From Klebsiella pneumoniae (GTDB taxonomy: Bacteria; Pseudomonadota; Gammaproteobacteria; Burkholderiales; UBA3065), in contig CAMDGF010000012.1 of the NCBI GenBank assembly GCA_945897555.1, positions 1-45,773 of the forward strand: a stretch of 45,773 nt of DNA, read 5' to 3'. The notes beneath the pieces are model-generated. The model ran no database searches. It saw only the letters and a list, made by a program, of their open reading frames with translations, and had not been told where the DNA came from. A program made the position numbers and the translations under genes. Shown here piece after piece: positions 35,200 to 39,118 of this stretch (its first letter is position 1; each line of letters opens with the position of its first letter).

Positions 35200-35766
35200 T
35201 CAGTCCAGTGGCAGATAACGCACTGCGAGGATCTCCAGATGGCGTTCACCGGCTGGTGTACGCAGGGTGACCTCATCACCTTCACGTGTCTTGGTGAGCG
35301 CCCTGGCCATGGGTGACACCCAGCTGATGCGGCCGCGGCCCGCGTCCGCTTCGTCGATGCCGACGATGCACACGGTCTGCGTCTCGCGGCTGTCCAGATC
35401 CAGGATGTCCACGGTGGCGCCAAAGAACACCTGATCCGTGGCCTCGCGCGTGGCGGGGTCGACCACCTCTGCGTTGTCGAGGCGTTTGCCCAGGAAGCGC
35501 AGTCGCCGGTCGATCTCGCGCAGGCGTTTCTTGCCATAGAGGTAGTCGCCGTTCTCCGAGCGGTCACCGTTGCTGGCCGCCCATGCCACGGTCTCGACCA
35601 TCTTCGGCCGCTCGAGTTGCCAGAGCTCGTCGAACTCGGCCTGCAGCCGCGCATGACCGGCGGGTGTCATGTAGTTCTTGCTGCCCGGCGGAACCGGATG
35701 GGCGTCGGCGAACTCGTCGTCCTCGTCGTCGGGTGGCGTGTCTTCCTTAAAGAAGGCCTTGCTCAA
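35200..35766 (-). CDS. greB: Transcription elongation factor GreB
   Basis: GreB rescues backtracked RNA polymerase by stimulating transcript cleavage. The 188-residue protein has an acidic N-terminal extension (PPDDEDDEFADAHP), the coiled coil with the acidic tip NGDRSENGDYLYGKKRLREI, and the C-terminal FKBP-like domain (VFFGATVDILDLD, ISWVSPMARALTKTREGDEV). E. coli GreB is 158; the extra length is the N-terminal tail. Start is TTG 35766 (an ATG at 35783 is in another frame). A 12-bp palindrome GCGGGGCCCCGC (35769-35780) sits just upstream, 20 bp after the SoxYZ-like gene, which reads the same way. Confidence 0.93.
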   Translation of the reverse strand: MSKAFFKEDTPPDDEDDEFADAHPVPPGSKNYMTPAGHARLQAEFDELWQLERPKMVETVAWAASNGDRSENGDYLYGKKRLREIDRRLRFLGKRLDNAEVVDPATREATDQVFFGATVDILDLDSRETQTVCIVGIDEADAGRGRISWVSPMARALTKTREGDEVTLRTPAGERHLEILAVRYLPLD

Positions 35767-35786: not shown

Positions 35787-36641
35787 TCAGGTCCCGTTCC
35801 TGGGCAGGCTCAGCGTCGAGGTGAACACCAGATCCCTGGAGTCGACCACTTTGGCCGTGAGGTCGCCCGCGCCCGCGCTCGGCAGAAAATAAAAGCGCAG
35901 GTTGGGGTTCTCACTGATGGAGAAATCGACGTCGGCACTCATGATGACCTTGCCAGCGTAGGCCACCTCGATGTGGCGCACATAGTGCGAGGGCACGAAC
36001 AAACGCGTCACCTGGTCCATCTGCATGCCTGAGTTGTTGGGGTGCGAGACCATGACCTGGGCGAGGGTGGGACGGCCCTGCTGCACTTCACCCTCGATCT
36101 TGAACTTGACCTTGCCCAGACGCGCCAGAGCGGCTTCCATGTCCTTGCCCGCCGGCGCTGAACAGCCCCCTGCGGCGCGCACGAATTTGCGCGCCATGTG
36201 CAGCTGGCCGTCACTGGTCTCGGCGACCACCCGCACCCAGGTGTATTCCTCGAGCCGGATGCGTGTCTCGATGTCGGCGCGACCCGATTCGGGTGTGAGT
36301 TCGAAACTGGCGGCGATCGGCGTCGGGTTCTTGTCGACCAGCAGCCACATCTTGCGGATGTAGCGGCTGGGGGTCTGGTCGACCTTGGCTTTGAGTCCGA
36401 CCGGCACCACGGCAGCGTCCTCGGCACGGAACGGTGCATCGAGTTCGACCACGTCGCCGAGATTGTCGGCGATCGGGCGGTCGGCAAAAAGGAACGCGCG
36501 AATGTCGGCCCACTGCTCGGTGTCGGCAGAAGGCTCATCGGCAGCCTGTGCCGGGCCTCCCATGAGCGTGCCGATGATCAGCGCAGCAACGGCAGCCAAG
36601 CCTTGGATGGTGAGGCGATGGGGAAGGGCGAAGGTGGGCAT
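35787..36641 (-). CDS. Quinoprotein dehydrogenase-associated SoxYZ-like carrier protein
   Basis: A 284-residue secreted protein: signal peptide ending PAQA-ADEPSAD, a SoxY-like domain (about 45-165) and a SoxZ-like immunoglobulin fold (about 180-284). SoxY normally ends in a GGCGG swinging arm that carries sulfur intermediates; here AAGGCSAPAGKD places the cysteine (residue 160) at the junction of the fused domains. This architecture is the family named for co-occurrence with PQQ dehydrogenases, whose function is not established. It follows the metallohydrolase gene by 85 bp on the same strand; xoxF lies about 9 kb away. No other sox gene is present. Confidence 0.88.
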   Translation of the reverse strand: MPTFALPHRLTIQGLAAVAALIIGTLMGGPAQAADEPSADTEQWADIRAFLFADRPIADNLGDVVELDAPFRAEDAAVVPVGLKAKVDQTPSRYIRKMWLLVDKNPTPIAASFELTPESGRADIETRIRLEEYTWVRVVAETSDGQLHMARKFVRAAGGCSAPAGKDMEAALARLGKVKFKIEGEVQQGRPTLAQVMVSHPNNSGMQMDQVTRLFVPSHYVRHIEVAYAGKVIMSADVDFSISENPNLRFYFLPSAGAGDLTAKVVDSRDLVFTSTLSLPRNGT

Positions 36642-36726
36642 GGGGGGGCTCCGGTGCTTCAGCGAGGGGGCAAGTAGGCGAGGGCCGGGTGGTCCATTGG
36701 CTCATTATTGTAAGTCGCTTGCGTTT

Positions 36727-37707
36727 TCATTGGGCCGCATCTTCCCACTCGAGTTCCGCGTATGCCGCGGTGACGTTGCGGCGGTGCAGCTGATCCACCA
36801 GCGCCCAGTCGGCCGATGGAGGCACCGCCTCGACTGCCTTCTGGATGGGCAGGCGCTGGCGCAGTGCCCCACGCACCGCGTCGCGCAGACCTTCGAGGTA
36901 GCGGGTCTGGGCCTGCCAGCCGGCGCTGTCGACCACAGGCCCGTGGCCCGGCACCGTACGCACGGCACCGAGCTTGCTCAGGGCTGGCGTCTGTGCCAGC
37001 CAGCCGACGAGGTTGCCATCGATGACTGGCAGATGGTTGACGAACAGCAGGTCGCCGGCGAACAGCGTTCGGGTGGTCGCGTCGTAGACGGTGAGGTCAT
37101 GGTCGGTGTGGGCGGTCTTCCAGCTTTTAAGCTGCAGCACGCGACCGCCGAGGTCGATGTGGGTCTCGCCGTCGACCGTCTCGCCCGGGATCAGGATGAG
37201 TGGTGCTGCACTGAGTCCGAGCTGGCGTTGGGCCAGAGCCTGGTAGGTCTGCATGCGTGCCGCCACCGCCGCTGGCAGGCGTGCGTGCGCCAGCTGCCGC
37301 GCGGCCGTGTGGCCTGCTGCGACCGCTGTCAGTCCGAGCAGGTGGTCGGGGTGGCCGTGGGTGATGATGACCGCGCACAAAGGCACACGGGTGCGCTTGG
37401 CCAGCGCTGCCAGCAGCGCCTCGCCGGTCGCCGTGCTGCCACCGGTATCGATCACGGCGACACAGCGTTCGCCGACCACAAAGCCCCAATTCGAGGTGTC
37501 GCCCGCATTGTCGCGATGCGGTTCGGCAACCTGGCCGATGTGCACGAACACGCCGGGTGCCACTTCGCTCACCGCGTCGGGCGCGGGCGCCGCGGCGGTG
37601 AGCAGCACGGCTGCCGCGAGGGCGGCGACGAGGCCCGTGGCAGTGCGCTGGCCGTGGCCCTGACCAATGAGCGGCTTGTTGCAGCGAGTGTGGATGGAGC
37701 TTGGCAT
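36727..37707 (-). CDS. Quinoprotein relay system zinc metallohydrolase (metallo-beta-lactamase fold)
   Basis: A 326-residue protein with a long signal-like N terminus (hydrophobic GLVAALAAAVLLTAAAPAPD at about 25-44) and a metallo-beta-lactamase domain: zinc motif ITHGHPDHLLG, later ligand regions KTAHTDHDLTVYD and LFAGDLLFVNHLP, and VPGHGPVVDS. It resembles SoxH-related hydrolases that occur with PQQ dehydrogenases. Paired with the SoxYZ-like carrier downstream, it may process or recharge that carrier in the periplasm; this is inference. ATG 37707 is chosen because earlier frame reads through ndh. Divergent from ndh, 85 bp apart. Confidence 0.85.
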   Translation of the reverse strand: MPSSIHTRCNKPLIGQGHGQRTATGLVAALAAAVLLTAAAPAPDAVSEVAPGVFVHIGQVAEPHRDNAGDTSNWGFVVGERCVAVIDTGGSTATGEALLAALAKRTRVPLCAVIITHGHPDHLLGLTAVAAGHTAARQLAHARLPAAVAARMQTYQALAQRQLGLSAAPLILIPGETVDGETHIDLGGRVLQLKSWKTAHTDHDLTVYDATTRTLFAGDLLFVNHLPVIDGNLVGWLAQTPALSKLGAVRTVPGHGPVVDSAGWQAQTRYLEGLRDAVRGALRQRLPIQKAVEAVPPSADWALVDQLHRRNVTAAYAELEWEDAAQ

Positions 37708-37792
37708 CGACGCCGAGTCTAGACCGGTCAGGGTGTGGAGAACGACTTTGTTACACTCCCACTGGTTATCTTTGTCTACCGTCAGGCACGCC

Positions 37793-39118
37793 ATGACCCA
37801 GTCCACATCGTCGTTGCACCGTATCGTCATTGTCGGCGGCGGCGCCGGGGGGCTCGAGCTCGCGACCCGACTCGGCGACACGCTCGGCCGGCGCAACAAG
37901 GCCGAGGTCACGCTCATCGATCGCAGCCGCACGCATCTGTGGAAGCCGCTCTTGCACGAGGTGGCGGCTGGCAGCATGGACCTTGACGATCATGAACTGG
38001 AGTACCTCGCGCAGGCGCGATGGCACCACTTCAAGTACCGCCTCGGCGCGTTGGCGGGCATCGACCGCAAGCAGAAGTTCGTCAAGCTCGCGCCGGTCTT
38101 TGATGACGAGGGCGAGGTCATCATCGAAGCCCGCACCGTGCCCTACGACACGCTGGTCATCGCCATCGGTTCGGTGTCGAACGACTTTGGCACGCCGGGC
38201 GTGGCCGAGCACTGCATCTCGCTCGATACGCAGGCCGACGCCGAGCGTTTCCACAAGCGTCTCATCAACAACTGTATGCGCGCACAGGCGCAACGCACGC
38301 CGCTGCAGCCCGGCCAGCTGTCGGTTGCCATCGTCGGCGCCGGTGCCACCGGCGTCGAGTTGTCTGCCGAACTGCATCGCACGGTGCGCGAACTGGCCGC
38401 CTTCGGTCTCGACCGCATCGACCCGGCGCGCGACATCCAGATCACCATCATCGAAGCGGCGCCGCGCATCCTCGCGCAGATCCCGGAGCGTCTGGCCGCA
38501 TCCGCCATGGACTTGCTGCACGCGCTCAAGGTCAAGGTGCTGACTGGCGAGAAGGTGGTCGAGGTCACTGCCGATGGTGTCCGCACCGCCGGCGGGACCT
38601 TTGTTCCGGCTCGGCAGGTGGTGTGGGCGGCGGGCATCAAAGGCTCGCCGATCCTCGCCGGCCTCGATGGCCTCGAGGTGACGCGGAACAACCTGCTGGT
38701 GGTCCGTCAGACACTGCAGACCTCGCGCGACGACGACATCTTTGCGCTCGGCGACTGCGCTGCCTGCCCGTGGCCGGAGAAAGAGGCGCTGGTGCCGCCA
38801 CGAGCACAGGCCGCGCACCAGCAGGCCACCACCCTGCTCAAGACGCTGCGGCGGCGGCTCGAAGGCCGGCCGCCATTGGAATACCACTATCGTGACTTCG
38901 GCTCGCTGGTGAGCCTCGGCGAATACAGCACGGTCGGGTCCTTGATGGGCGGGCTGCACCGCGGCACCCTGATGCTGGAGGGGGCGATCGCTGGCCTGAT
39001 GTACAAATCGCTCTATCAGATGCATCTGGTGGCTTTGCACGGCTGGGTCAAGGTTGCGCTCGACACCCTTGCCCGCTCCATCACGCGCCGCACCGAACCC
39101 CACATCAAGCTGCACTAG
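37793..39118 (+). CDS. ndh: Type II NADH dehydrogenase
   Basis: A 441-residue non-proton-pumping NADH:quinone oxidoreductase. Two dinucleotide folds are clear: RIVIVGGGAGGLELATRLGD at the start for FAD and VAIVGAGATGVELSAEL near 178 for NADH, then IFALGDCAACPW and the C-terminal membrane-anchoring region (LMYKSLYQMHLVALHGW). It oxidises cytosolic NADH at the inner membrane. TGTTACACT at about 37749-37757 could be an extended -10. The outer-membrane channel gene of the RND system starts 14 bp after its stop. Confidence 0.95.
   Translation: MTQSTSSLHRIVIVGGGAGGLELATRLGDTLGRRNKAEVTLIDRSRTHLWKPLLHEVAAGSMDLDDHELEYLAQARWHHFKYRLGALAGIDRKQKFVKLAPVFDDEGEVIIEARTVPYDTLVIAIGSVSNDFGTPGVAEHCISLDTQADAERFHKRLINNCMRAQAQRTPLQPGQLSVAIVGAGATGVELSAELHRTVRELAAFGLDRIDPARDIQITIIEAAPRILAQIPERLAASAMDLLHALKVKVLTGEKVVEVTADGVRTAGGTFVPARQVVWAAGIKGSPILAGLDGLEVTRNNLLVVRQTLQTSRDDDIFALGDCAACPWPEKEALVPPRAQAAHQQATTLLKTLRRRLEGRPPLEYHYRDFGSLVSLGEYSTVGSLMGGLHRGTLMLEGAIAGLMYKSLYQMHLVALHGWVKVALDTLARSITRRTEPHIKLH

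Follow-up and report, generated by a model that had tools for sequence, protein, structure and literature searches.

What task do a one-cysteine carrier built from SoxY and SoxZ domains and an adjoining zinc hydrolase perform in a genome that also encodes XoxF? Methanol oxidation that depends on lanthanides is widespread, and for several of the genes linked to it no task is known. The window analysed here is the entire contig C12 (45,773 bp) of a 1.81-Mb genome (52 contigs, 98.5% complete), and its closest named relatives at the pair are two Betaproteobacteria MAGs, L133 from a pond and L134 (hydrolase identity 75% and 71%, respectively). The first-pass annotation had described the two genes in tandem, with greB behind them; its coordinates, motifs, gene order, shared strand and 20-bp spacing to greB were all confirmed in the open reading frames and their translations, and both proteins fall into the two families it had named, with profile scores above cut-off (Table 1). 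On the minus strand, the hydrolase gene is followed after 85 bp by the carrier gene and then by greB, which is probably on the same transcript as the carrier. The order NDH-2-like gene, hydrolase, carrier and greB is kept only in L133 and L134; we therefore regard greB as a local operon accident and dropped it as a functional partner of the carrier.

Table 1 Positions of the pair, its neighbours and related genes.
Feature	Position	Strand	Evidence
Zinc metallo-hydrolase, quinoprotein relay system zinc metallohydrolase 2 (ATG at 37707, stop at 36727)	36727-37707	-	TIGR04559, 323.8 bits (cut-off 280)
Hydrolase Cys82 and Cys111 codons	37462-37464, 37375-37377	-	
Fused SoxY-SoxZ carrier, Cys160 at domain junction	35787-36641	-	TIGR04557, 272 bits (cut-off 140)
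Cys160 codon, GGCSAP loop	36162-36164	-	Translation, conservation
greB, TTG start	35200-35766	-	NF002506, 229 bits (cut-off 188)
NDH-2-like pyridine-nucleotide-disulphide oxidoreductase, divergent neighbour of the hydrolase	37790-39118	+	
xoxF, N-terminal 110 codons, gene cut by contig end	45443-45772	+	TIGR03075, partial match (positions 3-94 of 530)
xoxF, C-terminal 110 codons, end of contig C30	L016:5874-6206		
PQQ-dehydrogenase-like protein, contig C1	L015:5784-7892	-	374 bits, below TIGR03075 cut-off
Separate SoxY and SoxZ genes (C1:104098 onward)	L014:7784-8684		
Ligand-less hydrolase homologue, contig C37	L022:5423-6430	-	THAHPEN, G and E at zinc-ligand sites
Four-cysteine protein c8, window genome	C6:84521-84844	-	
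Four-cysteine protein c8	L057:10330-10710		
Four-cysteine protein c8	L153:7519-7887		

The pair had also been placed on the same contig as xoxF. This is true, but the association in the window is weak: the gene is present only as an edge fragment, 8 kb off and on the opposite strand. The other end of xoxF lies on contig C30, where its neighbours are an MxaD-like SRPBCC protein and a binding protein resembling MoxJ/XoxJ (TIGR03871, 238 bits); the middle part is missing, and we infer that the two fragments are one gene split by assembly. A second pair is found on contig C6, where a carrier (TIGR04557, 195.6 bits) and a hydrolase (TIGR04558, 381 bits; cut-off 300) have a complete PQQ alcohol dehydrogenase (TIGR03075, 788 bits) immediately behind them, along with PedF, a cytochrome c-550, and a binding protein. 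This dehydrogenase carries vicinal cysteines (PCCDVV) and an extra aspartate (WDYDG), giving the D-x-D motif that we take to mark lanthanide-type enzymes. Genes for PQQ synthesis (a pqqB-like ORF and pqqC) lie on contig C37. Contig C1 holds a further PQQ-dehydrogenase-like protein with an LCCGPA motif and an atypical catalytic region, as well as separate genes for SoxY, ending in GGCGG, and SoxZ, beside a metallophosphoesterase-like ORF.

The carrier is a single fused chain of 284 amino acids with a SoxY domain (PF13501, residues 53-160) and a SoxZ domain (PF08770, residues 185-276), and its match to TIGR04557 spans 225 of 226 profile positions. Its N-terminus is of the Sec type (...GGPAQA/AD); export of both carrier and hydrolase was judged from the N-termini by eye. 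Cys160, in the context AAGGCSAP, sits exactly at the end of the SoxY domain. It is invariant in all 43 carriers from genomes of the class, where it is usually the sole cysteine past the signal region, and in all 75 aligned rows of the named-genome loci and the window. The profiles of true Sox proteins fall short of their cut-offs (SoxY, TIGR04488, 80.6 against 125; SoxZ, TIGR04490, 54.2 against 76). Both domains of canonical SoxYZ (PDB 2ox5, 4uwq) are homologous to those of the carrier, and its cysteine likewise lies on a loop, but canonical SoxYZ consists of two separate subunits, bears the cysteine in a C-terminal GGCGG arm and has SoxAX and SoxB as partners, whereas the window protein is fused and its GGCSAP is internal. 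In its score, its fused chain with a junction cysteine and its occurrence in a genome with a PQQ alcohol dehydrogenase and PQQ synthesis genes, the protein agrees with the TIGR04557 carriers. A single-sequence structure prediction was poor (pLDDT 47.7) and was left out of the conclusions.

The hydrolase has a metallo-beta-lactamase fold and a complete set of di-zinc ligands (HxHxDH, that is H117/H119/D121/H122, with H200, D219 and H255), and its score and intact ligands place it in TIGR04559. It scored only 37.8 bits as a subclass B1 metallo-beta-lactamase (cut-off 200), and an Asp replaces the Cys zinc ligand of that subclass. The window copy shows no difference from the SoxH-related zinc metallohydrolases 2 and 1 (TIGR04559 and TIGR04558; PP_2678), being of type 2 where the C6 copy is of type 1; in contrast, a homologue on contig C37 reaches neither cut-off and no longer has its zinc ligands, the sole exception among 34 homologues. 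An AlphaFold model of the hydrolase (pLDDT 89) matched folds of metallo-beta-lactamase hydrolases. Chlorothalonil dehalogenase (6uxu) and an uncharacterised enzyme from Burkholderia (8d2z) came closest; behind them ranked alkylsulphatases, beta-lactamases and the thioesterase PqsE. Because the dehalogenase, alkylsulphatases and beta-lactamases are as close as thioesterases, the modelled fold leaves the substrate undecided; there is also a weak resemblance to glyoxalase-II (TIGR03413) and PqsE. Cys82 and Cys111 are invariant in alignments of hydrolase 2 and were not seen at the corresponding motifs of hydrolase 1 on C6; they may form a structural disulphide in hydrolases of the XoxF-linked type.

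The pair is a member of families that are already named (plasmid records annotate copies under the NCBIfam family name), and its link to PQQ enzymes is already published, so the idea itself is not new. The TIGR04557 carriers PP_2677 of P. putida and the homologues in the META1p1703-1705 operon of M. extorquens share the fused SoxY-SoxZ chain, the junction cysteine, the adjoining hydrolase and the PQQ dehydrogenase link; the window pair differs in standing outside any dehydrogenase operon, between the NDH-2-like gene and greB. A 2026 review (PMC12997753) discusses both PP_2677/PP_2678 and the operon of M. extorquens. In lucinid symbionts, fused SoxYZ proteins lie near soxH and either a PQQ alcohol dehydrogenase (S2) or xoxF and formate dehydrogenase (S4), and a role in carbon metabolism was proposed (PMC11237559); they resemble, at least broadly, the two lineages described below. 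A Sox(YZ) fusion and SoxH were noted in a Hyphomicrobium PQQ cluster (PMC11582611). Although carriage of the fused gene by phages is reported in the literature, it was not found in the phage collection that we searched with the carrier protein.

The first-pass annotation had proposed that co-occurrence with PQQ enzymes be checked, and we did so in a class and a phylum sample. Since the TIGR04557 cut-off is also reached by tandem soxY-soxZ genes when these are read across a stop, only uninterrupted matches above it were counted as fused carriers; the excluded matches with internal stops are mostly adjacent soxY and soxZ genes, judging from the stop at the domain junction. In the class sample, the fused carrier was present in 30 of 276 genomes, from 23 families. 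A PQQ alcohol dehydrogenase (TIGR03075) was found in all 30 but in only 17 of the 246 others (Fisher, P = 2e-28), and in the phylum sample of 199 genomes in 28/28 against 22/171 (P = 9e-21); both P values assume independent genomes, which these are not, and 23 families with zero exceptions are the stronger argument. The two samples overlap in carrier genomes G000 and G091. A pair in a genome lacking PQQ enzymes was searched for in both samples and none was seen, and pqqC accompanied 28 of the 30 class carriers. All 23 genomes with hydrolase 2 (TIGR04559) also have the fused carrier; in the remaining seven carrier genomes, a carrier has as its neighbour a hydrolase clustering with the C6 copy, which is of the TIGR04558 type. 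The fused gene is missing from most genomes with tandem soxY-soxZ.

Eighty loci from named genomes were collected with the hydrolase profile or alignment, the carrier alignment being too divergent. In 66 of them the gene directly behind the hydrolase is that of the carrier; of the other 14, some are cut off by the end of a contig or have wrongly placed ORF starts. At 49 of the 80 loci xoxF lies no more than 8 kb from the pair (on the same strand in 41 of these), and the neighbourhoods contain genes for XoxJ-like, MxaD-like (SRPBCC), beta-propeller and four-cysteine (c8) proteins as well as pqq genes. An S-(hydroxymethyl)glutathione synthase gene lies beside one pair (L111), with look-alike ORFs at two more loci. 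In a maximum-likelihood tree of 63 carriers, all 11 that neighbour hydrolase 1, in ExaF/PedH-type clusters, are split by a fully supported long branch from those that accompany xoxF and hydrolase 2; the hydrolase tree splits likewise, each active group having support of 100/100. For the most part, then, carrier, hydrolase and dehydrogenase class form matched sets, and the window genome has one set of each kind.

The motifs of the dehydrogenases themselves were read in all carrier-positive genomes and for at least one gene from each carrier-negative genome. Every one of the 30 carrier-positive genomes has at least one lanthanide-type (D-x-D) enzyme. Among the 17 carrier-negative genomes with a PQQ alcohol dehydrogenase, nine (G008, G015, G042, G121, G126, G133, G149, G221 and G226) have only heme-bearing quinohemoproteins among the genes read, and eight (G026, G128, G145, G156, G170, G213, G232 and G244) have a lanthanide-type enzyme without the pair. 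At L092 the pair follows a calcium-type dehydrogenase (WDYSG), and at L087 and L088 the fused carrier closes mxaF-type methanol dehydrogenase operons (calcium, WDYAG), after mxaD-like and beta-propeller genes; because these enzymes are of the calcium type, the pair is not strictly linked to lanthanides. It tracks soluble, mostly lanthanide-type PQQ enzymes but is not obligatory for them.

The reading that we prefer, at a probability of somewhat under 40%, is that the pair may be a periplasmic thiol-carrier and hydrolase module for soluble, mostly lanthanide-type PQQ alcohol dehydrogenases, handling an aldehyde or acyl adduct derived from the dehydrogenase. The window pair would serve XoxF and the paralogous C6 pair the ExaF/PedH-type enzyme. 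Cys160, on the loop between the carrier domains, would take up a reactive dehydrogenase product, most likely an aldehyde such as formaldehyde, and hold it as a thiohemiacetal; the adduct would be carried onward, possibly after oxidation, as a thioester, and the zinc hydrolase would cleave it, releasing an acid or hydrate and regenerating the thiol. Such a module would parallel glutathione-dependent formaldehyde oxidation, but in the periplasm and with the adduct bound to a protein. A single cysteine on a loop, teamed with a hydrolase, is an architecture that points to a covalent adduct formed elsewhere, which the partner then hydrolyses. An aldehyde or acyl adduct is preferred because the pair goes with the dehydrogenase and not with a sulphur pathway, and because the reaction of formaldehyde with thiols is a standard means of detoxification, one of whose enzymes is encoded beside the L111 pair. 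The co-occurrence with PQQ alcohol dehydrogenases without a single exception, the invariant cysteine, the intact zinc ligands and the weak likeness of the hydrolase to glyoxalase-II and PqsE also count in favour of this reading. The interpretation offered in the first-pass annotation, an intermediate, perhaps made by the XoxF product, held on the cysteine and released by the hydrolase, is supported in part: in its families, its link to PQQ dehydrogenases and its one-cysteine carrier working with a zinc hydrolase. The window xoxF is a non-adjacent edge fragment, though xoxF neighbours the pair in many relatives.

Several observations speak against the aldehyde relay. Quinohemoproteins also make periplasmic aldehydes, yet genomes that rely on them are without the pair, so aldehyde handling alone is insufficient to account for its distribution; and the pair is not essential to the enzyme, since eight lanthanide-type genomes lack it. 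The hydrolase fold, too, sides no more with thioesterases than with a dehalogenase, alkylsulphatases or beta-lactamases. RB-TnSeq of P. putida in lanthanide-free medium gave minimal phenotypes (PMC12997753), and in M. extorquens XoxF1 makes formaldehyde that is used via Fae (PMC6414531).

The same proteins could instead protect the dehydrogenase from sulphur, the carrier scavenging thiol, sulphite or sulphane-sulphur that would add to PQQ or the enzyme and the SoxH-like hydrolase discharging the adduct. The SoxY/SoxZ and SoxH ancestry is one of sulphur chemistry, thiosulphate inhibits growth of Hyphomicrobium on methanol and PQQ-sulphur adducts have been proposed (PMC12997753), and SoxH-type hydrolases are proposed to free sulphate from SoxY (PMC10045233). 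Such adducts should, however, equally threaten quinohemoproteins, whose dependent genomes are without the pair, and no second SoxY/SoxZ match turned up in three of the pair genomes (G114, G023 and G192). A rhodanese-like PQQ protein with a CXXCW motif, which would suit sulphur handling, occurs in only 5 of the 30 pair genomes, each of which has an ExaF-linked pair, and the window genome does not encode it; it was rejected as an obligatory third partner on this count. We consider protection from sulphur unlikely, if the strongest of the rival accounts.

Less likely again is a part in maturation, an option already raised (PMC12997753), in which the pair would join XoxJ, the MxaD-like protein and redox partners in assembling the dehydrogenase, for example by forming the vicinal disulphide or inserting the cofactor. 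The XoxJ-like, MxaD-like, beta-propeller, c8 and pqq genes near the pair would fit this role, as would the carriers beside mxaD-like and beta-propeller genes at the mxaF-type loci; the eight lanthanide-type genomes that manage without the pair count against it, and it is hard to see what a zinc hydrolase would do in disulphide formation or PQQ insertion. These proteins have been proposed to act on the vicinal Cys-Cys motif (PMC12997753), which is found in nearly all dehydrogenases read. Because the motif occurs also in quinohemoproteins of genomes without the pair, its distribution weakens the disulphide idea and rules out vicinal disulphide formation as the specific job of the pair. Last, ordinary Sox-type thiosulphate oxidation in a coincidental neighbourhood, despite clear SoxY and SoxZ homology, is very unlikely given the sub-threshold Sox scores, the fused chain with its GGCSAP arm in an internal linker, the absence of the fused gene from most tandem soxY-soxZ genomes and its presence, in our samples, never without a PQQ alcohol dehydrogenase.

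Alongside the proposed carrier and hydrolase module, many xoxF clusters hold a second hydrolase homologue with broken zinc ligands (for example THQAPEF for THxHxDH and G for the bridging D). We tabulated 37 such sequences, which match TIGR04558 and TIGR04559 below cut-off, and a low-scoring homologue lies within reach at 42 of the 80 loci. Twenty of these paralogues and the C37 copy, which adjoins TonB-like, pqqB-like and pqqC genes, form a supported group (99/93) apart from both active hydrolase groups. A second carrier follows the ligand-less paralogue in several clusters and keeps the GGCSAP cysteine. The xoxF operons of L138, L144, L153 and L173 each have two carrier and hydrolase-like sets; there the second carrier forms its own clade with the cysteine kept, and the second hydrolase lacks the zinc ligands.

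The four-cysteine protein c8 (120 amino acids) has an exported-type N-terminus, lies near the pair at 47 of the 80 loci and shows no Pfam or NCBIfam match; its cysteines C40, C55, C57 and C115 are invariant in 51 of 51 sequences. It was found in 22 of 199 class genomes, all 22 with a PQQ alcohol dehydrogenase, and these include G026 and G156, which have XoxF without the pair. A limited literature search returned no mention of the ligand-less paralogue; absence there is no proof of novelty, and paralogue and c8 are possibly new. It is conceivable, though doubtful, that XoxF-type methanol oxidation uses a three-part relay of active zinc hydrolase, one-cysteine carrier and zinc-ligand-less pseudo-hydrolase, the last, one clade over several betaproteobacterial families and often with its own second carrier, acting as a non-catalytic docking or sensing partner and c8 as a further part.

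This work adds to the published PQQ link a census, the matching of lineages, a motif-based test of the disulphide idea and two extra conserved proteins. The census indicates that the pair is not a general or a sulphur-oxidation feature. The matched lineages make its function testable through partner swaps, and two concrete new targets emerge, the ligand-less paralogue and the four-cysteine protein.
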